Source: Salinisphaera sp. T31B1
GTDB taxonomy: Bacteria; Pseudomonadota; Gammaproteobacteria; Nevskiales; Salinisphaeraceae
Assembly (NCBI RefSeq): GCF_040361275.1
Contig: NZ_APNH01000001.1
Span: forward strand, 1,089,001-1,153,000
Direction of reading: 5' to 3'
Length of the DNA: 64,000 nucleotides
Shown here: one piece after another, positions 12,226 to 24,273 of the stretch
Numbering within the stretch: the stretch's first letter is position 1
Layout: every line of letters begins with the position of its first letter
Made by a program: the position numbers and the translations under genes
Notes under the pieces: model-generated
Databases searched by the model: none
What the model saw: only the letters and a program-made list of their open reading frames with translations
Told to the model about the DNA's origin: nothing

Positions 12226-14643
12226 CTAGGCCGAGGATCGGCCGGCGATCGTGTGCTGCTCACGGTCTGCCAGCAGGCCGGTGATCTGTTCGAACGGTAC
12301 CGGCCGGGCCACGTGATAGCCCTGGACATAATCCACGCCGATGCGACGCAGGGCCTCGAGCAGGGCCGCGGACTCGACGTGTTCGGCGACCGTGGACAGC
12401 CCCATCGCCTGTCCGACCCGGTTGATGGCTTCCACGATCGCGCATTCCACCGGCTCGTCGATGATGTTGCGTACCAGCTTGCCGTCGATCTTGATGAAAT
12501 CGGACGGCAAATGCTTGAGATAGGAGAACGAGCTCAGCCCGCTGCCGAAATCGTCCAGCGAGAAGCGACAGCCCAGTGCACGCAGCGTACGCATGAGCTC
12601 GCCGGCGCGCTGGGTGTTGGTCACCGCGGTCGTCTCGGTGATTTCGAACACCAGCACGCGCGGGTCGATCGCGTGCGAGGTGATCAACTCGCGGGCATAG
12701 TCGACGAAATGCTCGTCGGTAATCGATTGCCCGGAGATGTTGATGCTGTAGTGCTCGATCTCGGCGTGTTCGCTACGGGCGTCGGCGATCAGGCGCAGCG
12801 CGTGGCGCAGTACCCAGCGATCGATTCGTGAGGCTGCGTTGTAGCGTTCGGCGGTGAGCAGAAAATTCTGTGGGGCGACGATTTCGCCGTTGTCGCGGCG
12901 CATACGCAGCAGCAGTTCGACGCCGATACGCTCGTGTCGGCCTTTCGGATCGGCCGGCTCGATGATCTGGGCGAACAGCACGAACAGATCGTTGTCCAGC
13001 GCTTCGCTGATGAGCTGCATGCGCTGCATGTCGCCGTGGCGGGTACGGGTTTCGTCACTGTCGCCGCGATAGACATGTACCTGATTGCGGCCGGTCTCCT
13101 TGGCCAGATAGCAGGCAGTATCGGCACGCCGCAGCAGCTCGCTGGCGCTGACTGCGCTGCCGTCGATCGCGGCCACGCCGATACTCGCACTCAGGCGGAA
13201 CAGCTTGTCCTCCCAGCGAAAGCGGAACTGGTCGATCTCGGCGCGCAGCACTTCGGCCTTGGCCTTTGCATCGGCCAGAGACAGATTGCGCATCACCACG
13301 CCGAATTCGTCGCCGCCCAGTCGGGCCATGGTGTCGGCCGCGCGGAGTTTGCTGGCGAGCTGTGCGGTGAGCTGACGCAGCATCTCGTCGCCGGCGTTGT
13401 GTCCGCAGCTGTCGTTGACCAGCTTGAACTGGTCGAGATCGAGATAACACAGCGCATGCTCAATACTGCGAGTGCTCGAATCCTCGAGAAAACCGACCAG
13501 CAGTTTTTCGAAGGCGCGCCGATTGGGCAGCCCGGTGAGCATGTCGTGGTTGGCCTGGTAGTGCATCTCCCGCGAGATCTGCTGCAGTCGGCTGATATCG
13601 TGGAGCACGATCACGGCGCCGATTACGGCTTCCTGTGCGTCACGAATGGGCGCGATCGTCAGCTTGACCGCATCACCGCTGTCACGAAGCGTGCGGCTGT
13701 CGGCCCCGGGCGACTCGTTCCACTGGCGGGTTTCGCCGCCGGCCAGACAGTCGCGCAGCATCGTATGCGCCGAGATCCGGCTGGCCACATCGGCGAACTG
13801 GCACACCGCATCGAACGCTTGGCCGACGGCTTCGGCCGATGTGATCCCGAGCATCTGCTCGGCACGAGGATTCAAATAGTCGACTTCGCCCATTGCGTCG
13901 GTCGTGATCACGCCATCGCCGATCGAAGACAGCGTGACCTGCGCACGTTCCTTGGCCTGATTGAGCGCCTGCTGTGTCTCGATCAGGCGGGTCCCGTCGC
14001 GGCACACGGCTTCGCTGCCGATTGGCTGGCCATTGCTGTCGTCGATCCGGCGCGAGGAGATGAGCAGCCAGGCGATGCTGCCATCCTGGCGATAGCAGCG
14101 GGTGGGGTGGCGCGACAACTGCGGACTGAGCGTGAGCAGCTCGTAGTCGGCTTCGGGGTTGGCCAGGACCTCGCGCAGCGATCGGCCCTCAAGCGCGGCC
14201 GCGGTATAGCCGAGCATTTCGGTGACGGTATCGGTGACCCAGGTGATCCGCCCGTCGCGATCGGTATGGTAGAGCACGTCCGAGACACTGCGCAGCAGCC
14301 GTTGTACCCGCTGATGGCGTACCAACAGCTTTTCGCGGTAGCGATGAATCTGGTCGACGACGTCTTCGACCGCCGCGGCCACCTCGGCATCACCGCGGGC
14401 ATGGGTGGACAGTGCCGGTGGTGGTCGTTCGCCCGCCACATCGATCTGGCGAAGCCAGTTCACCACACGGCTGACCTCCGGCCCGGCCCTGGCCGGGTCT
14501 CGCAGACACAGCGCTAGCGACAGCCCTGCAATGATCACCGCGCTGAGCCCGAGCAGGGCCCCCGGGACCATGTGGGCATCGTCGGTGACCCACCAGGCGA
14601 GTACGAGCATGCACAACGCCAGCCCCAGAATCAGGGCGTGCAT
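12226..14643 (-). CDS. Membrane-anchored PAS-PAS-GGDEF-EAL cyclic-di-GMP enzyme
   Basis: I start at ATG 14643 (805 residues); GTG 14679 is an alternative and neither has a clear ribosome site. Two short hydrophobic helices near the N-terminus are followed by PAS domains (around residues 115-230 and 240-360). The GGDEF domain has an intact RLGGDEF and an upstream RAAD inhibitory site. The phosphodiesterase domain carries VELLLRM in place of the canonical EAL triad, keeping the Glu, and DDFGSGLSSF. Both activities look possible. It is divergent from the quorum-sensing kinase gene with 287 bp between the starts, suggesting a shared control region. Confidence 0.9.
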   Translation of the reverse strand: MHALILGLALCMLVLAWWVTDDAHMVPGALLGLSAVIIAGLSLALCLRDPARAGPEVSRVVNWLRQIDVAGERPPPALSTHARGDAEVAAAVEDVVDQIHRYREKLLVRHQRVQRLLRSVSDVLYHTDRDGRITWVTDTVTEMLGYTAAALEGRSLREVLANPEADYELLTLSPQLSRHPTRCYRQDGSIAWLLISSRRIDDSNGQPIGSEAVCRDGTRLIETQQALNQAKERAQVTLSSIGDGVITTDAMGEVDYLNPRAEQMLGITSAEAVGQAFDAVCQFADVASRISAHTMLRDCLAGGETRQWNESPGADSRTLRDSGDAVKLTIAPIRDAQEAVIGAVIVLHDISRLQQISREMHYQANHDMLTGLPNRRAFEKLLVGFLEDSSTRSIEHALCYLDLDQFKLVNDSCGHNAGDEMLRQLTAQLASKLRAADTMARLGGDEFGVVMRNLSLADAKAKAEVLRAEIDQFRFRWEDKLFRLSASIGVAAIDGSAVSASELLRRADTACYLAKETGRNQVHVYRGDSDETRTRHGDMQRMQLISEALDNDLFVLFAQIIEPADPKGRHERIGVELLLRMRRDNGEIVAPQNFLLTAERYNAASRIDRWVLRHALRLIADARSEHAEIEHYSINISGQSITDEHFVDYARELITSHAIDPRVLVFEITETTAVTNTQRAGELMRTLRALGCRFSLDDFGSGLSSFSYLKHLPSDFIKIDGKLVRNIIDEPVECAIVEAINRVGQAMGLSTVAEHVESAALLEALRRIGVDYVQGYHVARPVPFEQITGLLADREQHTIAGRSSA

Positions 14644-14930
14644 CGCCAGTTCACTTGAAGGCCGACGAATGCCGCTCACGACGGAGCCACGATCGGTTCG
14701 ACGACCGTTTCGTGGGTCAAAGACAGGCTGTGGCCTTGGCGTCGCATGGTCCCCGGATGCCGATAAGGCGAATGGCGCCCTACGAGTATACCGATCAGCA
14801 GCAATATGAGCGTGCCGGCGGCGCGATCGCACGCGGGTACCGGTGAACGGGATGACTGGCAGGTAGTATGCATGGCCAGATGTTCCATACTGAGACCATT
14901 GCACATGCCTGATCCGGAGCGAAAGTTTCG

Positions 14931-16301
14931 ATGAACTGGCCACGACTGACCGGCCGGCTCGGCTTTGGTCTGAAGGCCAGACTGCGCTGGCTTCGAGTGC
15001 GCGTGATCGCGGCCATGGAACAGAGCGCGGCCTATTCGCGCCCGAACATGCAACTTTTCGCGCTGGTAGCGGTGATCGCGCATCCGGTCTACTACCTCTG
15101 TTGGACCGAACTCAGCCCGCAGCCATTCGAAAGCGTCTGGCTGCGGGCATTCAGTATCGTGATCGCGCTGCCGATGCTGTTCGAGCCGTATGTATCCAAC
15201 GCCGGGCTATGGCGCGGACGCATCACGCTGTACTGGTTCCTGATCGTTGTCTATCAGCTGCCGTTCTTCTTCGTGTTCATGTCGTTGATGAACGGTTTCA
15301 GCACCGTCTGGGCGTTATCGACCATGGCCGCCTGTCTGTTCACCGTCCTGCTGGTTTTCGACTGGCTGATGGTCTTCGGCGTCGCTATTGCCGGCGCGGC
15401 TGCGGCGGCCGGCTGTTTCTGGGCGATCGGGGGATCGTTCGCTGACCAGGCCGACGAACTGATCGCATTGGCACCGATCTATCTGTTCGCCCTGATCGGC
15501 GGCAGCATCTTCAACTACAAGGCCGAAATCGTGGCTCGGGAAAAACTCGGCGCGATCACGTCGGCGGTCGGAACCATCGCCCACGAACTGCGAACGCCGC
15601 TGCTGAGTATCCGCAGCGGGGCGCGCGGTCTGCAGACCTATCTGCCGGCGCTGTTCGAAGGCTACGAACTGGCACGCGACAAGGGGCTCCCCGTGCCGCC
15701 GGTGCGTACTGCGCATCTGCGCCAGATGCACAGCGTACTCGAGCGCATCAACGGCGAGACCGAATACACCAACGTCATACTGGACATGCTGCTGATCAAT
15801 GCCAGCCGGACGACCATCGATACGAGCACGTTCGACGTGGTGCGTATCGGCGCGTGTGTCGAAGGCGCGCTCGCACGGTATCCGTTTCATTCGGATAGAG
15901 AGCGTACCCTTGTCTCTTGGGAGAAGGGCACAGATTTCGCTTTCCATGGATCCCAGCTGCTGATGATCCATCTGCTGTTCAACCTGCTGAAGAACGCATT
16001 GTACTTCCTTGCCCAGGCCGACCGCGGTGATATCCGGATCTGGACCGAACGCAGCCCGGCCGGCGCGCATCGTCTGCATTTTCGCGATACCGGGCCCGGC
16101 ATCGATCCGGATGTGTTGCCCCGTATCTTCGAACGGTTCTATTCGGCCATGCCGCGCGGGCAGGGTACCGGTATCGGGCTGGCCTTTGCGCGACTGGTAA
16201 TGGAGAGCTTTGGCGGCGATATTCGCTGTCATTCGGCGTTGGGACGCTACACTGAGTTCGTATTGAGCTTTCCGGCCCTGGAGAATCATGAGCACGGCTG
16301 A
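14931..16301 (+). CDS. lqsS: LqsS/CqsS-like quorum-sensing sensor histidine kinase
   Basis: This encodes 456 residues. About six membrane helices (residues 40-195) form the sensor, with no large periplasmic domain, as in CqsS and LqsS. A dimerisation/phosphoacceptor helix has the H-box AHELRTPLLSIRSG (His near 218). The ATPase has LLFNLLKNAL (N box), DTGPGID (G1) and GTGIGLAFARLVMESFGG (G2). Unlike Vibrio CqsS it has no receiver domain; that function is in the next gene, which overlaps it by 14 bp. Together with the downstream CqsA/LqsA homologue this argues for detection of an alpha-hydroxyketone. The symbol is by homology; the orthologue is not proven. Confidence 0.8.
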   Translation: MNWPRLTGRLGFGLKARLRWLRVRVIAAMEQSAAYSRPNMQLFALVAVIAHPVYYLCWTELSPQPFESVWLRAFSIVIALPMLFEPYVSNAGLWRGRITLYWFLIVVYQLPFFFVFMSLMNGFSTVWALSTMAACLFTVLLVFDWLMVFGVAIAGAAAAAGCFWAIGGSFADQADELIALAPIYLFALIGGSIFNYKAEIVAREKLGAITSAVGTIAHELRTPLLSIRSGARGLQTYLPALFEGYELARDKGLPVPPVRTAHLRQMHSVLERINGETEYTNVILDMLLINASRTTIDTSTFDVVRIGACVEGALARYPFHSDRERTLVSWEKGTDFAFHGSQLLMIHLLFNLLKNALYFLAQADRGDIRIWTERSPAGAHRLHFRDTGPGIDPDVLPRIFERFYSAMPRGQGTGIGLAFARLVMESFGGDIRCHSALGRYTEFVLSFPALENHEHG

Positions 16302-17307
16302 ACTGGCCCCGTATTTCCACCCCACCCAGATCGTGCTGGTGGATGACGATATCGACTTCCTGGGCAATCTCAGCCTGCAGTTGGAGGCCGATCTGCCCTA
16401 TCTGCTGTTCGACTCGACCACCAAGGCCCTGGGCTATATCAACGATCGGCAAATCGACGGCCGCTCGCGAGAGCGATTCTTTCGCGTCTGCGAAGGCGAG
16501 GGCGGCCAACGGGTGAGTCTGGATACCGATGCGATCGCTCGGGAAATGCATTACTCGAATCGCTTTTCCCAGATCTCGGTGGCCATGGTCGATTATGCGA
16601 TGCCGCAGATGAACGGGCTGGATTTCTGTCGTCGGATACAGAACCCGCATATCAAGAAAATCCTGTTCACCGGCGTCGCCAGCGAAAAAGCGGCGATCGA
16701 CGCATTCAACGATGGGGTGATCGACCGCTACATACGCAAGAGCGAGCATCTGGTCTACGACCATCTCAACAGCACTATTCGCGAGCTGCAGCAGGCCCAC
16801 ATCCGCGAGACGTTTTCTCATGCCAGCGACGTGTTCCATGTAGCCGCACCGTCGTGGCTCGAGGACCGGCACGTGATCGCGCTCATGGAAAACCTGCGCC
16901 GTCGCTATCACATCGTCGAATATTATCTGGTGAGCGATCCGGCCGGCTTCATGCTCGTCGATGGCGAGGGCAACCTCTACCGGCTGATGCTGATCACGCC
17001 CGAAGAGCGCGACGCCCAGATCGCGCTGATGCGTCGCGCCGGTGCGCCCCGCGACTGCCTGAAAGCGCTGGAGCGCGGCGAAGTCCTCATCGCGCCGTCG
17101 GTTGCGCAGCTGGTAGCTGCTGGCGAAAGTGACATTTTACGTCATTGGTCGCGTTATTCGCGGCCGTCGACCGCCTTGAACAGTCATCGCTACGCTTTCT
17201 GGGCCCTGTTCGATCAGCGCGATATGCCCGGTGCGCCGAGCCCGCCGGATGCGACTTTCTCCCGATATCTGGATTGGCTGGATACGGTCGGGTACTCGTT
17301 GATGTAA
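16288..17307 (+). CDS. lqsR: LqsR-like response regulator
   Basis: The product is 339 residues. The N-terminal half is a receiver domain with the acidic cluster VLVDDDID (residues 17-24), a phosphoacceptor Asp in AMVDYAMPQMNGLDF (about 102), and the switch Thr/Lys region ILFTGV and YIRKSEH. A charged insertion of roughly 40 residues (about 52-95) separates the acidic cluster from the Asp; this unusual spacing is what I recall for Legionella LqsR. The C-terminal half has no recognisable DNA-binding or enzymatic domain. It overlaps lqsS and precedes the autoinducer synthase gene, so it is the likely phosphorelay output. Confidence 0.75.
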   Translation: MSTAELAPYFHPTQIVLVDDDIDFLGNLSLQLEADLPYLLFDSTTKALGYINDRQIDGRSRERFFRVCEGEGGQRVSLDTDAIAREMHYSNRFSQISVAMVDYAMPQMNGLDFCRRIQNPHIKKILFTGVASEKAAIDAFNDGVIDRYIRKSEHLVYDHLNSTIRELQQAHIRETFSHASDVFHVAAPSWLEDRHVIALMENLRRRYHIVEYYLVSDPAGFMLVDGEGNLYRLMLITPEERDAQIALMRRAGAPRDCLKALERGEVLIAPSVAQLVAAGESDILRHWSRYSRPSTALNSHRYAFWALFDQRDMPGAPSPPDATFSRYLDWLDTVGYSLM

Positions 17308-17562
17308 TCCCCGCCGTCGGCCCACTGTTGCGGTCCATTTGCCAGCTGCTCGGCGGCGCCGGCATTAAGCCTCTGTTTCCATAAAAATTTTATTCCATCC
17401 GTCTGTGCTGGTCGGAGGAAAGCGCGCGCGAGATCGAAGTTGGCCTGCCCCGGACATGCGCCCGTAATCGCCTCCAGAAGTCGATAGGATTGCGCGCGCA
17501 ACACGCTGAGCGCCAAACGTAATTTGTATATCAGCGCCAGATGCGGTAAGTAAATATAGTAA

Positions 17563-17615
17563 TTATCAGCTTAAGTGACAAAAATTGTCAGTTTCGCTGA
17601 TAAATCGTATTTATC
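17563..17615 (+). promoter_or_regulatory. Nested and overlapping inverted repeats upstream of the autoinducer synthase gene
   Basis: TTATCAGC (17563-17570) and GCTGATAA (17596-17603) flank TGACAA-AAA-TTGTCA (17576-17590), and both pairs share the same centre, 17583. A third repeat, GATAAAT-CGT-ATTTATC (17599-17615), reuses the right outer arm. TTGTCA (17585-17590) can also be read as a -35 box with TATTTA 17 bp later, followed by the ribosome site at 17631. The region is markedly AT-rich compared with its neighbours. It looks like an operator overlapping the promoter, or a switchable RNA leader; which one is not known. Confidence 0.6.
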
Positions 17616-17642
17616 TATATGCTGCAAATTGGAGCGGTTCTC

Positions 17643-18914
17643 ATGAGTGTCGATAACAAATCCTTCCATGGCCCCGCGCTGCGTCCGCGCTCGAAGGCCG
17701 AGCCGGAATTTCTGCGCGAGCACGTGGACCACTATTTTCGCGAGCGGGTCGAAAAGACCTGGAAGGGCGGACACATCATGCACGGGCGTACGCCCGGCCC
17801 GGATGCGATCCTCATGGTCACCAATGACTATCTGGATCTGGCGAACAACCCGCAGATCCTGCAGGCGCAGATCGACAGCCTGCGCGGGTCGGACAACACC
17901 GTGGTGATGTCGGGTGTCTACCTGCACGGCGACAGTCCGCAGCTCGACCTGGAGCGGCGAATGGCCCGCTGGATGCGCATGGAATCCAGTCTGCTGTGCC
18001 AGTCCGGCTATGCCGCCAACGTCGGCCTGATTCAGGCGATCGGCGCACCGGGTACTCCGGTGTATGTGGACATGTTCGCTCATGCCTCGCTCTGGGAGGG
18101 TGTCCGCAGTGCGGGGCTGGAGTGGAAGCCGTTCCGTCATAACGATGCCTCGCATCTCGAGACCATGATCGAGCGCAATGGCCCGGGCATCGTCGTCATG
18201 GATTCGGTCTACAGCACGACCGGCAGCGTTGCACCGCTCAAGGCGCTGGTCGAGGTCGCCAATCGCCACGGCTGTGTGACCATCGTCGATGAATCGCACT
18301 CGCTCGGCACTCACGGGGATCAGGGCCGCGGTCTGGTCGCCGGGCTGGGGCTGCAGTCGGAAGTGCATTTCGTCACGGCGAGTCTGGCCAAGGCGTTTGC
18401 GGCGCGGGCCGGTCTGATCGCCTGCAGCGAGCGGCTGCGTCAGTTCATCAAGTACAACTCGTTTCCTGCCATCTTCAGCTCATCGTTGTTGCCGCACGAT
18501 ATTGCCGGGCTATCGCGCACGCTGGAGCTGATTCGCGCAGCCGACGCCGAACGGGAACGCCTGCATGCCAGCGCGGCTTATCTGCGCCGGCATCTTAGAG
18601 CGCTCGGCTATAACGTCGACACCGGTCAGGCGCAGATGATCGCGCTCGAGGCGGGGCCCGAGCAGAACACGATGGTGCTTCGCGACGCGCTCGAATCGCG
18701 CGGGGTGTTCGGTTCGGTATTCTGTGCACCGGCCACCGCAACCAAGCGATCGCTGATCCGTCTGTCGGTCAACACGAGCCATACCTATGCACAGATCAAC
18801 CGGGTGATCGAGGTCTGCGCCGAGATTCGCGACGAAGTGGATCTGGCCAACTGGCCGTCTACGCGTCGTGCGGCCAAGCGCGAACGCCCGGAGGACGCCG
18901 CCCGCGCGGCGTAG
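17643..18914 (+). CDS. lqsA: Alpha-hydroxyketone autoinducer synthase, CqsA/LqsA type
   Basis: From ATG 17643 (GGAG at 17631-17634) this encodes 423 residues of the PLP-dependent alpha-oxoamine synthase family. CqsA-specific segments are clear: NDYLDLANNPQI, VVMSGVYLHGDSPQ, SLLCQSGYAANVGL, FAHASLWEG, DESHSLGTHG and VFGSVFCAPAT. The PLP lysine is in TASLAKAFAARAG (about Lys250). CqsA and LqsA condense an acyl-CoA with an amino-acid-derived substrate, leading to CAI-1 or LAI-1 type hydroxyketones. These residues separate it from KBL or BioF. The upstream kinase and regulator supply the response half of the circuit. Confidence 0.92.
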   Translation: MSVDNKSFHGPALRPRSKAEPEFLREHVDHYFRERVEKTWKGGHIMHGRTPGPDAILMVTNDYLDLANNPQILQAQIDSLRGSDNTVVMSGVYLHGDSPQLDLERRMARWMRMESSLLCQSGYAANVGLIQAIGAPGTPVYVDMFAHASLWEGVRSAGLEWKPFRHNDASHLETMIERNGPGIVVMDSVYSTTGSVAPLKALVEVANRHGCVTIVDESHSLGTHGDQGRGLVAGLGLQSEVHFVTASLAKAFAARAGLIACSERLRQFIKYNSFPAIFSSSLLPHDIAGLSRTLELIRAADAERERLHASAAYLRRHLRALGYNVDTGQAQMIALEAGPEQNTMVLRDALESRGVFGSVFCAPATATKRSLIRLSVNTSHTYAQINRVIEVCAEIRDEVDLANWPSTRRAAKRERPEDAARAA

Positions 18915-18972
18915 TACCGGACAGGCCGGGGCAGCCAGTCATCGTGCCGTGCCCCGGCCGCCAGGTTGTCCA

Positions 18973-19004
18973 ATGCCGGCCGTCGATACGGCCGGCATTT
19001 TTTT
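18973..19004 (+). terminator. Rho-independent terminator after the autoinducer synthase gene
   Basis: A perfect 10-bp stem ATGCCGGCCG/CGGCCGGCAT (18973-18982 with 18989-18998) is followed by T residues through 19004. The convergent AGCS gene ends at 19006. On the minus strand the stem lacks a comparable U tract, so it mainly serves lqsA. Confidence 0.9.
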
Positions 19005-19005
19005 G

Positions 19006-20463
19006 CTAGTCCCAGATGCCCGGCTCGACCTGATCGGGGTTTTTCAGCACCTTGCGGTGGAAGACCGGTTCGTCGATGCCTTCGGCCCGCTGGCGCTCGT
19101 AGTCCTTGAGCACGCGCAGCGCGATCGGGAACAGGCACAGGATGGCAATGAGGTTGGTCGTGGCCATCAGGCCCATCGCCAGATCGGCAAAGTCCCAGAC
19201 GAAACTCAGGGTCGCCACCGAGCCGATCATCACCATAGCCAGCACGAGTGGGCGCAGGATCGCCACGGCCTTCTTGCCGTGCCGGCCGGCCAGATATTCG
19301 AGATTGATCTCGCTATAGGCGAAATTGGCCAGAATCGAGGTATAGGCGAAAAACAGGATCGCGACGGCGATGAAGCCGACGCCGAACATGCCCAGATGGT
19401 CGGCCATTGCATCCTGGGTCAGCTGGATGCCCTGCATCGAATCGCTGCCGCCGTGGGCGAGCATCCGGTCGTACACGCCGGACAACAGGATCACGACCGC
19501 CGTACAGCTGCAGATGATCAGCGTATCGATGACCACGCCGAACGCCTGCACCAGGCCCTGGGCTGCCGGATGATTGACCTCCGCGGTTGCCGCTGCGTTC
19601 GGCGTCGAGCCCATGCCGGCTTCGTTTGAAAACAGGCCGCGTTTGACGCCGTTCTCCATGGCCGCCTTGATGGTATAGCCCACGGCGCCGCCCACGGCCG
19701 GCCCGAAGCCGAACGCGCTCTTGACGATCAGTGCGAACATCGCCGGTACCTGGTCGTAGTTGACCACCAGCACGTACATCGCGACCAGGAAGTAACCGAT
19801 GGCCATCAGCGGCACGACTTTTTCGGCGGTTCGGGCAACCGATCTCAGGCCACCGTATATGACGATGCCGGCCAGAATCACCAGCGCGATGCCGGTCGCC
19901 CAGGTCGGTACGCCGAACGCGCCTTCCATGCCCTTGGCGATCGTGTTCGCCTGCGCGCCGGAAAAGGCGAACCCGTAGGCCAGAATCAAGAACACCGCGA
20001 ACAGGATGCTCATCCAGCGCTGACCGAGCGCGCGCTCGATATAGTAGGCCGGGCCGCCTCGATAGACGCCGTCGGCATAGTGGATCTTGTACACCTGCCC
20101 GAGCGTGCATTCGATGAACGTGGTGGCCAGTCCCACCAGCGCGGTCATCCACATCCAGAACACCGCCCCGGGCCCGCCGATCCACAGGGCCAGTGCTACG
20201 CCGGCCAGGTTGCCGGTGCCGACGCGGGCGGCCAGCGATGTCGCCAGTGCCTGGAACGAACTGATGCCGCTTTCACTGCTGCGACTGTCGAACGTGATCC
20301 GCACCATGTGAAAGAACAGCCGGAACTGCACGAAGCGCGTGGCAACGGTGAAGATGATGCCGGCGCCGAACAGCAGATAGAACAGAACGTACGACCAGAT
20401 GAAATCACTGATCGGCGTCATCACGGCATAGACCGCCTGCTCCAGCGTATTGATTAACTCCAT
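19006..20463 (-). CDS. Sodium/proton:alanine or glycine symporter, AGCS family
   Basis: The product is 485 residues with about eleven predicted helices and the AGCS signatures: RFVQFRLFFHMVR near the N-terminus, AARVGTGNLAGVALALWIGGPGAVFWMW (sodium/amino-acid signature, about 85-112), YRGGPAYYIERAL and VKRGLFSNEAGMGSTPNAAA. These carriers import alanine, glycine or related small amino acids with Na+ or H+. The start is preceded by a long untranslated region with hairpins (20464-20957). The exact substrate cannot be assigned. Confidence 0.92.
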   Translation of the reverse strand: MELINTLEQAVYAVMTPISDFIWSYVLFYLLFGAGIIFTVATRFVQFRLFFHMVRITFDSRSSESGISSFQALATSLAARVGTGNLAGVALALWIGGPGAVFWMWMTALVGLATTFIECTLGQVYKIHYADGVYRGGPAYYIERALGQRWMSILFAVFLILAYGFAFSGAQANTIAKGMEGAFGVPTWATGIALVILAGIVIYGGLRSVARTAEKVVPLMAIGYFLVAMYVLVVNYDQVPAMFALIVKSAFGFGPAVGGAVGYTIKAAMENGVKRGLFSNEAGMGSTPNAAATAEVNHPAAQGLVQAFGVVIDTLIICSCTAVVILLSGVYDRMLAHGGSDSMQGIQLTQDAMADHLGMFGVGFIAVAILFFAYTSILANFAYSEINLEYLAGRHGKKAVAILRPLVLAMVMIGSVATLSFVWDFADLAMGLMATTNLIAILCLFPIALRVLKDYERQRAEGIDEPVFHRKVLKNPDQVEPGIWD

Positions 20464-21031: not shown

Positions 21032-22084
21032 TCAGTTGACCGGGCCGCCCTCGCTGTCCTGGCTGCATTCGGCCAGACCGCTGTCGGTCGAGCAACGAAT
21101 TTTTTTCAGCAGATGCTGCATGCGATGGTTGTACCAGTTCTGATCCCACAGCTGCTGACGCGTGTTTCGGAACATTTCGCGGTAATCGGCATCGCGATCG
21201 CCGGAAATATGCACCCAGTACTTATCCGGGATCTCCTGATCAGCCGCTTTCACGCGGCGCAGGGTCGAATCGAACATGTTGTCGAACACCCAGCTGCGCG
21301 ACTTCTGGCCGAAGCCGTCCGGAAACTTGTCCTGATGCACGATCAGCTGGCCCGAGAGCATGCCGAGTACGAAGTCGGCGATCCCGCCGTTGTTGCCGAG
21401 GCCCTTGTAGAGTTCCAGCGCGTTGTAGGCGAACGACGGTGCATAGGCCAGGTCGACGCTGCCGTTGTTGAACATCGGCCCGAACGATGCGATGGACGCA
21501 CCGACCGGCGATGCGCCTGCCACGTTGGCCAGCGTGGAGGCCTGCTTGTCATAGGACATCACCGCAATCTTCTTGCCGGCGATGGTGTCCAGGCTTTCCA
21601 GATAGGACTTGTCACGCGCGAACAGGAATGCCTTGCCCAGCGGTACCACGCCCACGACCTCGTTGCCGTCCTGGACCATGTACTCGGCTGCCTTGGGGCT
21701 GGACATCACCTTGATGGCGGTCTTCTCCTGGTCGTAGGTCTGCAGCCCGCCCGCCATGTCCAGCGAACCGGAAAACTTCACGAAGTGAATCGCGCGGATG
21801 CCGGTAATGCCGACCATGTCGCACTTACCCGCCTTGAAATCGTTGGCGGCTACCGCCTCATCGGTATAGGCACGCGTGTTGAGCTTGATTCCCCAGCTAC
21901 GGGCCTGCACGACGTAATCCTGGAACGACTGGTAGATGAAGCCGTTCGCGCCGATCGGATCGTAGACACACAGTGAACGGGTTTCGGTCTGGGCGGCGGC
22001 GGGCTGCAGCGCGCCGCCCAGCAGCACGGCCGCACCGACGGCGAGCGGTCCCAGATACGAGGTGAGTAGATTTCGGGTCGACAT
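21032..22084 (-). CDS. Periplasmic solute-binding protein, AdeT/DUF6091-like
   Basis: ATG 22084 follows a perfect AAGGAGG (complement of 22092-22098). The 350-residue precursor has a Sec signal peptide ending PAAAQ near residue 32. The mature part has LCVYDPIGANGFIYQSFQDYV, FKAGKCDMVGITGIRA and HISGDRDADYREMFRNTRQQLWDQNWYN. This resembles the putative solute-binding family that includes the Acinetobacter AdeT proteins and is found beside TRAP-type permeases. The adjacent permease and lipoprotein support a binding-protein role. The ligand is unknown; the AdeT drug-efflux label in that family should not be taken as function here. Confidence 0.75.
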   Translation of the reverse strand: MSTRNLLTSYLGPLAVGAAVLLGGALQPAAAQTETRSLCVYDPIGANGFIYQSFQDYVVQARSWGIKLNTRAYTDEAVAANDFKAGKCDMVGITGIRAIHFVKFSGSLDMAGGLQTYDQEKTAIKVMSSPKAAEYMVQDGNEVVGVVPLGKAFLFARDKSYLESLDTIAGKKIAVMSYDKQASTLANVAGASPVGASIASFGPMFNNGSVDLAYAPSFAYNALELYKGLGNNGGIADFVLGMLSGQLIVHQDKFPDGFGQKSRSWVFDNMFDSTLRRVKAADQEIPDKYWVHISGDRDADYREMFRNTRQQLWDQNWYNHRMQHLLKKIRCSTDSGLAECSQDSEGGPVN

Positions 22085-22143
22085 GGGTTTTCCTCCTTGT
22101 GATTCGTTCTGCGTGCCCGGCTCGCGGCGGGCCGGCACCCAAG

Positions 22144-24273
22144 CTAGAACAGGTGCATGAAGATCAGCGGCACGAACGCGACCAGCAGCAACGAACTGGC
22201 CAGTACGGTGATCGGCAGCAGCAATGCCTCGTGGCGACGCCAGAAGCTCGGATCGTCGGCCACCTCGGCCTTGGCCAGCTGAATTTCGGCATCGCCGACC
22301 ACCTGGCGTGTGAGCAACTGGTTGAGCGCCACAGGCGGGCTGAGATAACCGAGCTCGAAGGCCACCAGCACCATCATCCAGAAATGCACCGGATCGATGC
22401 CGTTGTCGTAGGCCACCGGTGCGAGCGTCGCGCTGACCAGGATGATCGCTCCGTACGGATCCATGATCATGCCGATGATCACCAGCATCACCACCAGAAT
22501 AGCGGTGGCATACCAGACGTTGCCGAAGTGGTCCGGGAACAGTTCCATCACGCCGGAGCGCTCCATGACGCCGCCGAAGACGATCGACATGACCATCAGC
22601 GACAGCAACGCGCCCAGAAGCACGGCCGACTCGGCGGTCGATGCACGCAGTGCATTCCAGAAGCCTGCTGGTTCGTGGGCCGGCGCACGCGCCTCGCCGC
22701 GATCGGCCTTGTAGATGGCCGCAGCGTAGAGACGACGTGCACGCCATCGATCATAGGCCAGCAACGCCAGCATCATCAGCGGCAGGATCACCGGCGCCGA
22801 GAACTCGTTGAAGCTCTGGCCGAGCAGGTGCGAATAGATCATCACCACAGCGACCGCAATCACGATATAGGGCAGCGTCGGCCCGATCGCCCGCCGGAAA
22901 GCGGGTAACGCATCGTCTGGCGTCGCCAGGTAGGGTCGGCTCTTGCGGGTGAGATAGACAAAGCCCGTGAAGATGATTGCGGTCAGCAGGAACACGTACA
23001 CGCCCCAGCCGTAGAGCTGATCGGTGGTCACCTGCCGATTCAGTGCGGCGATGATCACCACCATCAGACACGGGTTGAGCACGACGCCCATGCTGCCCGA
23101 CATGGCCGTCGAGGCGATCGCGAGCTGGCGATAGGTGCCGGCGATACGCAGTTCCTGGTAGATCACCGCGCCAATTGCCAGCACGAAGATCCCGGATGCC
23201 CCGGTATAGGCGGTGGGCCAGGCAGAGGCCAGCACCACGAGAATCACGATGAACTCGGGCCGAAGTTCCCACGAACGGAACAGCCCGAACAACAGCTCGG
23301 CAATGCGAGTGTGTTTGAGCATCATGCCGACCCAGACGAAGAGCCCGATACCGGTGTACAGATCGGCGAACCGGATCATCTTGCTCAGCTGAATCGCCGG
23401 GCCGGCGATATAGCCTTCGCTGACGAAGAAATAGACCAGGCTGACCAGCGCCAGCCAGCAGTACAGCGGAATGGTCAGTGGCGCATAGGCCAGCGAACCG
23501 CCACTCGGCGCGTCCTCGGGCACGCGGATCATGCGATAGGCCGCCGCGGCGGCGAGCATGACAAAGCCGATGAGCCAGGCCAGGTTGAGCCAAGTATCGC
23601 CGCCGCCGTCCAGGCGCAGCCATACGAAGCCGCTGATCGCCATGGCGACATTCGCCGCTACCTGGGCGCCCGAACTGACCCGGATATCCAGGCGCGTCTT
23701 GGGCATGCGCAGGGCGATCTGCTCATTGAGCACGAGGGCGATGAAGCCGCCGAACATGATCAGCAGAACCAGGATATAGGCCTGCGCGCCCTGGCCGATC
23801 TGGTTGATACGGCCCATGCCCAGTTCGAGTGCGCGAAACGCCCTGAGCGTGGAGGTGTCAGTCCATTTCTGGTTGTACTCGTAGCGCTGGTAGTTCTCCT
23901 TGCACTGCGCCAGCTGCGACTCCAGCGAACGCCGCCGGGCCTCGGGATCGGCCGGCCCGGCATCGAACAGGCTGTCCTCGGCAGCGGCGCTGCCCTGCAT
24001 GTTGGCGATACGCGCGTCGATGTCCATGTTCGGGTCGCATGTCGGCTCCGACATGTCGACACGCAGCATGTTGTAGTTGTCCCAGAGAGTGCCGCCGAGG
24101 CTGAGCAACTGCCCATGGATGAAGGCGCTGGTACCGAACACGATCGCAAGCAGCAACAGGATCGCGATCGGAGCCGTGATCAGCCAGTTTCGTGCCTGGC
24201 TGTACTCAACGGCCACATCGCCGGCGTGCGGGTCAGCGTGCGCCGGCCCGTTGTCGAGTCGTGTGTCGGCCAT
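22144..24273 (-). CDS. TRAP-type transporter large permease with fused N-terminal (DctQ-like) region
   Basis: The 709 residues are longer than a standard DctM (about 430). The N-terminal third has a transmembrane helix, a charged extracytoplasmic loop of roughly 100 residues rich in Asp and Glu, and further helices, standing where a DctQ subunit would be. The remainder is a DctM-like domain with GASGIFVLAIGAVIYQEL, SMGVVLNPCLMVVIIAALN, MIMDPYGAIILVSATLAPVA and LSPPVALNQLL. It probably carries an organic anion using sodium. It lies 59 bp upstream of the binding-protein gene and 1 bp after the lipoprotein gene: one operon. Confidence 0.82.
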   Translation of the reverse strand: MADTRLDNGPAHADPHAGDVAVEYSQARNWLITAPIAILLLLAIVFGTSAFIHGQLLSLGGTLWDNYNMLRVDMSEPTCDPNMDIDARIANMQGSAAAEDSLFDAGPADPEARRRSLESQLAQCKENYQRYEYNQKWTDTSTLRAFRALELGMGRINQIGQGAQAYILVLLIMFGGFIALVLNEQIALRMPKTRLDIRVSSGAQVAANVAMAISGFVWLRLDGGGDTWLNLAWLIGFVMLAAAAAYRMIRVPEDAPSGGSLAYAPLTIPLYCWLALVSLVYFFVSEGYIAGPAIQLSKMIRFADLYTGIGLFVWVGMMLKHTRIAELLFGLFRSWELRPEFIVILVVLASAWPTAYTGASGIFVLAIGAVIYQELRIAGTYRQLAIASTAMSGSMGVVLNPCLMVVIIAALNRQVTTDQLYGWGVYVFLLTAIIFTGFVYLTRKSRPYLATPDDALPAFRRAIGPTLPYIVIAVAVVMIYSHLLGQSFNEFSAPVILPLMMLALLAYDRWRARRLYAAAIYKADRGEARAPAHEPAGFWNALRASTAESAVLLGALLSLMVMSIVFGGVMERSGVMELFPDHFGNVWYATAILVVMLVIIGMIMDPYGAIILVSATLAPVAYDNGIDPVHFWMMVLVAFELGYLSPPVALNQLLTRQVVGDAEIQLAKAEVADDPSFWRRHEALLLPITVLASSLLLVAFVPLIFMHLF

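Follow-up and report, generated by a model that had tools for sequence, protein, structure and literature searches.

The window analyzed here is a stretch of 64,000 nucleotides (nt) from Salinisphaera sp. T31B1 (contig NZ_APNH01000001.1). It contains three adjacent genes encoding a membrane sensor histidine kinase (S), a response regulator (R) and a pyridoxal phosphate (PLP) enzyme of the CqsA/LqsA type (A), which the initial annotation had taken for a complete Lqs/Cqs-type quorum-sensing locus in S-R-A order. All three open reading frames (ORFs) were found intact where they had been placed, and the genes are co-directional in S-R-A order here and in every one of the 11 Salinisphaera loci compared. 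Most work on alpha-hydroxyketone signaling concerns Vibrio, Legionella and a small number of environmental betaproteobacteria. It is very likely that the locus gives the genus Salinisphaera a complete, working quorum-sensing system of the alpha-hydroxyketone (Lqs/Cqs) type. A chance association of the genes can be discounted, because each protein matches its own family, all three genes are present in 11 of the 14 genomes examined from the genus, and the ratios of nonsynonymous to synonymous change (dN/dS) are about 0.09-0.21. Between the window and the loci L004 and L013, dN/dS was about 0.15-0.16 for S, 0.18-0.21 for R and 0.09-0.11 for A, with synonymous change near saturation. Three elements go beyond the initial annotation: a GGDEF-EAL gene beside the locus, a dyad before A, and a prediction of the signal from receptor residues.

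Synthase family and distribution of the locus

A is a class I/II PLP enzyme according to Pfam. It scores 591.5 bits against NCBIfam NF005526 (alpha-hydroxyketone-type quorum-sensing autoinducer synthase), 163 above the cut-off of 428, and its nearest solved structure in the PDB is the CAI-1 autoinducer synthase CqsA (3hqt, E 4.4e-113). The synthase tree comprised 40 rows, including Vibrio campbellii CqsA (L093) and leaving out named LqsA, JqsA, Kbl and HemA sequences. A falls inside a 37-row CqsA-like group (support 100/99), apart from three paralogs from the genus that NCBIfam assigns, over their own cut-offs, to BioF (L003) and serine palmitoyltransferase (SPT; L002 and L025). All 11 synthases from Salinisphaera group together (100/100), and the tree leaves several forks deeper among the remaining CqsA-like lineages open. 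The tree and NCBIfam thus agree with the earlier placement of the synthase in the CqsA family rather than with BioF or SPT, the BioF and SPT enzymes compared being the paralogs from the genus.

It is highly improbable that A is instead a primary-metabolism enzyme of the BioF/Kbl/HemA/SPT type that merely adjoins an unrelated two-component pair. A does share the PLP superfamily with such enzymes, scoring 240.5 bits for bioF, 218 for SPT, 197 for glycine C-acetyltransferase (Kbl-type) and 179 for 5-aminolevulinate synthase (ALAS). However, all of these scores lie under their own cut-offs, BioF and SPT are present in the genus as enzymes in their own right, and the genomes with A are the same 11 genomes that have S and R. 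As a member of the autoinducer synthase family, A would make a 3-amino- or 3-hydroxy-alkan-4-one-type signal from acyl-CoA.

The start of A was listed at 17619. The true start is probably the ATG at 17643, since a GGAG box precedes it and 9 of 10 relatives show similarity only from residue 7 of the longer ORF or beyond (L010 from residue 1). The gap between R and the revised start is 335 nt. Two side observations concern synthase relatives. Genome G054 (L073, L074) has two CqsA-family synthases, the second of which is long-branched, scores 371 bits (<428) and has no S or R in its stretch. An 801-amino-acid (aa) ORF at L025:1441-3846, with similar ORFs at other loci of the genus, scores as serine palmitoyltransferase over its last ~390 residues and carries ~400 residues ahead of them; the SPT of the window's own genome (L002) is a 409-aa ORF.

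L-numbers denote compared loci or stretches and G-numbers denote genomes; the 11 Salinisphaera loci include the window. Of the 14 Salinisphaera genomes sampled, 11 have A, S and R. All three are absent from G002, G006 and G008 (99, 87 and 81% complete) at the cut-offs used, which were a score over the family cut-off for A, E<=1e-15 for S and E<=1e-10 for R. At E<=1e-90, 8 members of a class-wide sample of 369 genomes have the synthase family, as do 17 in a phylum-wide sample of 398 (16 over the cut-off), both samples taking in the window's own genome. LuxS was not found in any of the 14 Salinisphaera genomes, and its positive control matched. LuxI was likewise found in none of the 14, but its control set was silent; the same LuxI profile matches 11 of 114 class genomes, 8 of them over the cut-off. 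A complete copy of the lqs genes across most of an environmental genus, with LuxI and LuxS not found, offers a simple study system. One locus, L004 (NZ_JAGHQU010000003.1), is labeled Endozoicomonas sp. G2_2, probably wrongly, since it belongs in Salinisphaera by its synthase, its gene order and its genus grouping.

Table 1. Features of the Salinisphaera sp. T31B1 locus (positions within the window)
Feature	Position	Strand	Size and basis
S: LqsS/CqsS-type membrane sensor histidine kinase, no receiver	14931..16301	+	456 aa; Pfam, CqsS alignment, orthologs
R: LqsR-type response regulator, phosphoacceptor D102, LqsR-type output domain	16288..17307	+	339 aa
A: CqsA/LqsA-type alpha-hydroxyketone autoinducer synthase	17643..18914	+	NF005526, 3hqt, tree; ORF open from 17619
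S/R overlap, ATG of R within end of S	16288..16301	+	14 nt
Inverted repeat/hairpin ahead of A, core TGACA-AAAAT-TGTCA	17563..17603	+	Repeat search, RNA fold, shuffle control
Intrinsic terminator-like hairpin past A	18972..18999	+	Pattern match alone: 12 pairs, T tail
Divergent PAS-PAS-GGDEF-EAL protein, two hydrophobic N-terminal segments	12226..14643	-	Pfam, hydropathy, locus comparison

Sensor kinase, predicted signal and regulator

S matches HATPase_c (E 3e-22) and, below the cut-off, HisKA in Pfam. No Response_reg domain was found in it, in line with the earlier description of a kinase without receiver. S aligns with V. campbellii CqsS and with other lqs/cqs kinases across the sensor and the His box. 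Two results count against its assignment to this family. In NCBIfam, S scores best with LuxN, over the kinase core, but reaches only 112 bits where the cut-off is 1550, and no CqsS or LqsS row is present among the best 25 of 66 NCBIfam matches. Nevertheless, alignment, profile and fold comparisons agree that the kinase is related to CqsS and the regulator to LqsR, as had been proposed. The six-helix sensor fared less evenly. Six transmembrane helices in S may be expected from homology to CqsS, but a simple, setting-dependent hydropathy scan of the sensor shows four (strict) or five (loose) hydrophobic peaks.

The ligand determinants of V. cholerae CqsS are W104 and S107 for the head group, F160, F162 and F166 as gatekeepers and C170 for tail length (reviewed in PMC3376566, cited, like the other papers here, from excerpts), and V. 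harveyi CqsS is held to C8 tails by a phenylalanine at the tail position (PMC3285556). The places of W104, S107 and F162 are conserved in all 11 Salinisphaera S rows; that of F166 holds other residues and is not conserved. The place of C170 is F in 9 of the 11 rows, the window included, I in L009 and C in L057. The mapping of CqsS residue numbers onto columns of the Salinisphaera alignment is in part one that we take to be correct. Based on the residues at these places, S would bind the signal and should prefer a short C8-type, CAI-1-like tail and accept an amino or enamine head group.

R matches the solved LqsR structure (PDB 6sy9) over most of its length, by sequence and by fold. It has a receiver domain whose phosphoacceptor, put near residue 102 by the initial annotation, is indeed D102, which is invariant across an 11-sequence alignment; the unusual insertion noted there can now be placed at residues of about 58-78, a stretch of low model confidence. 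For the output domain alone, the only significant PDB matches are LqsR. The earlier statement that this domain has no known DNA-binding fold stands insofar as none was recognized, but it needs qualification, as the excerpted PhcX paper discusses the LqsR output domain as a degenerate GGDEF-like fold (PMC10653808). No GGDEF protein appeared among the best 50 matches of the R output domain alone in either Foldseek or VIA, a result that leaves room for such a relation.

S and R overlap by 4, 8 or 14 nt in all 11 Salinisphaera loci, and the overlap in the window is exactly the 14 nt that had been reported. Among ten other loci with all three genes, L076 is also S-R-A and co-directional, and the order is therefore not unique to Salinisphaera (1 of 10). 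Seven are convergent, with A facing R-S; in L089 A is divergent from S-R, and L012 has another arrangement. In 8 loci with long kinases (681-749 aa), the kinase carries a receiver domain in every case and R is not found in the stretch. In 14 non-Salinisphaera loci with short kinases, R lies beside the kinase in 11 and not in 3. R may stand in for the built-in receiver of the kinase, since it lies beside short kinases and none lies beside the receiver-bearing long ones.

The Salinisphaera locus resembles the Lqs system of Legionella pneumophila in its three kinds of protein, its receiver-less kinase and its LqsR-like regulator, the sequence comparison being for R. In Legionella, however, hdeD lies between convergent lqsS and lqsR, and LqsS has a serine at the place of CqsS W104 (PMC3376566), whereas the Salinisphaera genes are co-directional with S and R overlapping, S keeps the tryptophan, and a divergent GGDEF-EAL gene lies beside the locus. 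With the Vibrio Cqs system it shares a CqsA-family synthase and a CqsS-type sensor with the same three conserved ligand places. V. campbellii CqsS has its own receiver and no LqsR beside it, whereas the Salinisphaera receiver sits on R. By description, the Jqs system of Janthinobacterium (JqsA/JqsS/JqsR) likewise has a synthase, a kinase and an LqsR-type regulator together (PMC3566124). PhcX of Ralstonia is also an LqsR-family regulator, but it is decoupled from lqsA and lqsS and lies by phcBSRQ, unlike R within its full lqs locus; the same excerpt counts 310 proteobacterial genomes with LqsR-family orthologs, of which 87 are gammaproteobacterial (PMC10653808). The excerpted main text of that paper does not name Salinisphaera; its supplement may list the genus. 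No paper pairing Salinisphaera with cqsA or LqsR was found in the library searched, and papers pairing the genus with 'quorum sensing' appear, from their titles and the starts of their abstracts, to be community studies or reviews.

The only other S-like match in the window's own genome (E<=1e-15) is L100:5717-8125 (G000:C4, about 258.7-261.1 kb). An LqsT-like second kinase was considered for it and rejected, as the match spans the kinase core alone within a receiver-histidine kinase protein. This core, 42% identical to that of S, is the closest paralog in the genome, and a second receiver protein follows. A counterpart lies at L101:5710-8118 (G001), so that such a match was seen in 2 of 14 genomes at E<=1e-15, the domains being checked in L100. 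The L100 arrangement recalls PhcR-PhcQ of Ralstonia as described in the excerpt of PMC10653808.

The GGDEF-EAL neighbor and the proposed output of the regulator

The gene divergent from S encodes two hydrophobic N-terminal segments (by hydropathy) followed by PAS, GGDEF and EAL domains (by Pfam). Its start is probably at 14643; an ORF with a start codon stays open up to 14943. Neighboring genes were compared across the 10 other Salinisphaera loci and 24 non-Salinisphaera lqs/cqs loci, with E<=1e-6 as the threshold for a related gene. The GGDEF-EAL gene adjoins S in all 10 of the other Salinisphaera loci, although the contig of L005 ends within it. For agcS and for a lipocalin gene the count was 6 of the 10 each, some of the stretches ending before the position of one of these genes. 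In the more divergent L009, L049, L054 and L057, the GGDEF-EAL gene is the sole neighbor common to all four; agcS was not found in these loci, and one of them has the lipocalin gene, the L009 stretch being too short for the latter. The GGDEF and E-N-E-DD-K-E-Q motifs, whose residues we presume to be the critical ones, are intact in all 10 copies that cover them, including that of the window. For the G013 copy, a TGA was reported inside the matched span, yet the ORF of this copy is open over 865 aa.

S and R would work as a two-component pair, with the signal altering phosphorylation of R at D102. R, with no recognized DNA-binding domain, would most likely act on a protein partner through its LqsR-type output domain, and the conserved divergent GGDEF-EAL protein is the best-placed candidate for this partner. 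For this reason a change in cyclic di-GMP (c-di-GMP) is the likeliest single output that can be named, though the suggestion, which follows from gene linkage, is a tentative one. LqsR might be hard-wired to c-di-GMP in Salinisphaera, acting on the GGDEF-EAL protein as its dedicated membrane enzyme, either by direct contact or via the promoter region that the divergent genes share, with a leader hairpin acting in addition on the synthase; this combined arrangement is possible but rather unlikely. For the way in which LqsR, and with it the LqsR/PhcX family, acts, the conserved neighbor is a testable candidate, and a c-di-GMP link, if true, would be a direct output for that family.

Several results weigh against such a link, which is positional. 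No related gene was found in any of the 24 non-Salinisphaera stretches, and the k-mers common to the GGDEF-EAL gene and S, at three word lengths, are within the range of the shuffle maxima. The three lqs-less genomes also lack a GGDEF-EAL ortholog (E<=1e-120). This co-absence is weak evidence and may reflect one general loss, since these genomes gave only 7 first-look candidates each versus 33-77 elsewhere. There is about an even chance that the Lqs system works while the GGDEF-EAL neighbor is mere inherited synteny, with R acting, as its Legionella counterpart does, by way of a different partner or regulator. The 24 other loci without the neighbor are consistent with this explanation, as is the control of Legionella traits by Lqs together with the transcription factor LvbR, reported in an excerpt of PMC11237717. 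It is less easily reconciled with the four divergent loci, in which the GGDEF-EAL gene alone has been kept beside S in every case. Two loci contain additional EAL sequences: an EAL-domain gene (Pfam) downstream of A at L009:8366-9517, and an EAL-like stretch downstream of the synthase at L049:2046-3032 with 29% identity to the EAL part.

The inverted repeat ahead of the synthase gene

The arms of the inverted repeat before A (17556-17581 and 17585-17610) are 77% complementary. Folded as RNA, the repeat gives -17.8 kcal/mol (z -6.3), and none of 200 shuffles was as good. A GAC-GTC core is centered 52-64 nt ahead of the ATG in 7 of 11 species (the window, L004-L008 and L013), and TGACAAAAATTGTCA is identical in three species. 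With L008 left out, the core lies 45-70 nt before the ATG in 6 of 10 species, versus a mean of 0.22 and a maximum of 3 in 5000 base shuffles; this control was made afterwards, with the zone picked from the data, and its figure is not a probability because the species are related. A would be under the control of its own upstream region, and the hairpin or dyad probably sets synthase expression. A point to the contrary is that the core is not present in L009, L049, L054 and L057 (4 of 11 species).

The dyad may alternatively serve as a DNA operator at which a regulator of A binds, and not as an RNA hairpin; the chance of this is put at slightly under one half. The core shared without change by three species and its confined position in seven are what would be expected of an operator. 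In contrast, the outer arms vary among species yet are largely complementary, which favors an RNA stem. The MAFFT alignment of the region was too gapped for pair counting, and complementarity was therefore read by eye rather than from a covariation count. The fold scores of the relatives are only suggestive, since best-fold scans gave z -4.8 elsewhere in L009. A TGACA-N5-TGTCA regulon was also considered and rejected: the motif occurs at 4 places in the genome, of which only the one before A clearly precedes the start of a gene; none of the other three is a clear promoter, which does not favor an operator.

The sole Rfam match in 14500-19300, to mir-1322, was taken as chance, its 24 bits (E 0.19) lying below the gathering score of 70. 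A sigma-70 scan was uninformative, with 2 sites found, both on the opposite strand, and 1.6 expected. Farther downstream, at 21032-24273 of the window, lie TRAP-type transporter genes encoding a DctM-family protein and an AdeT1/2-like solute-binding protein.

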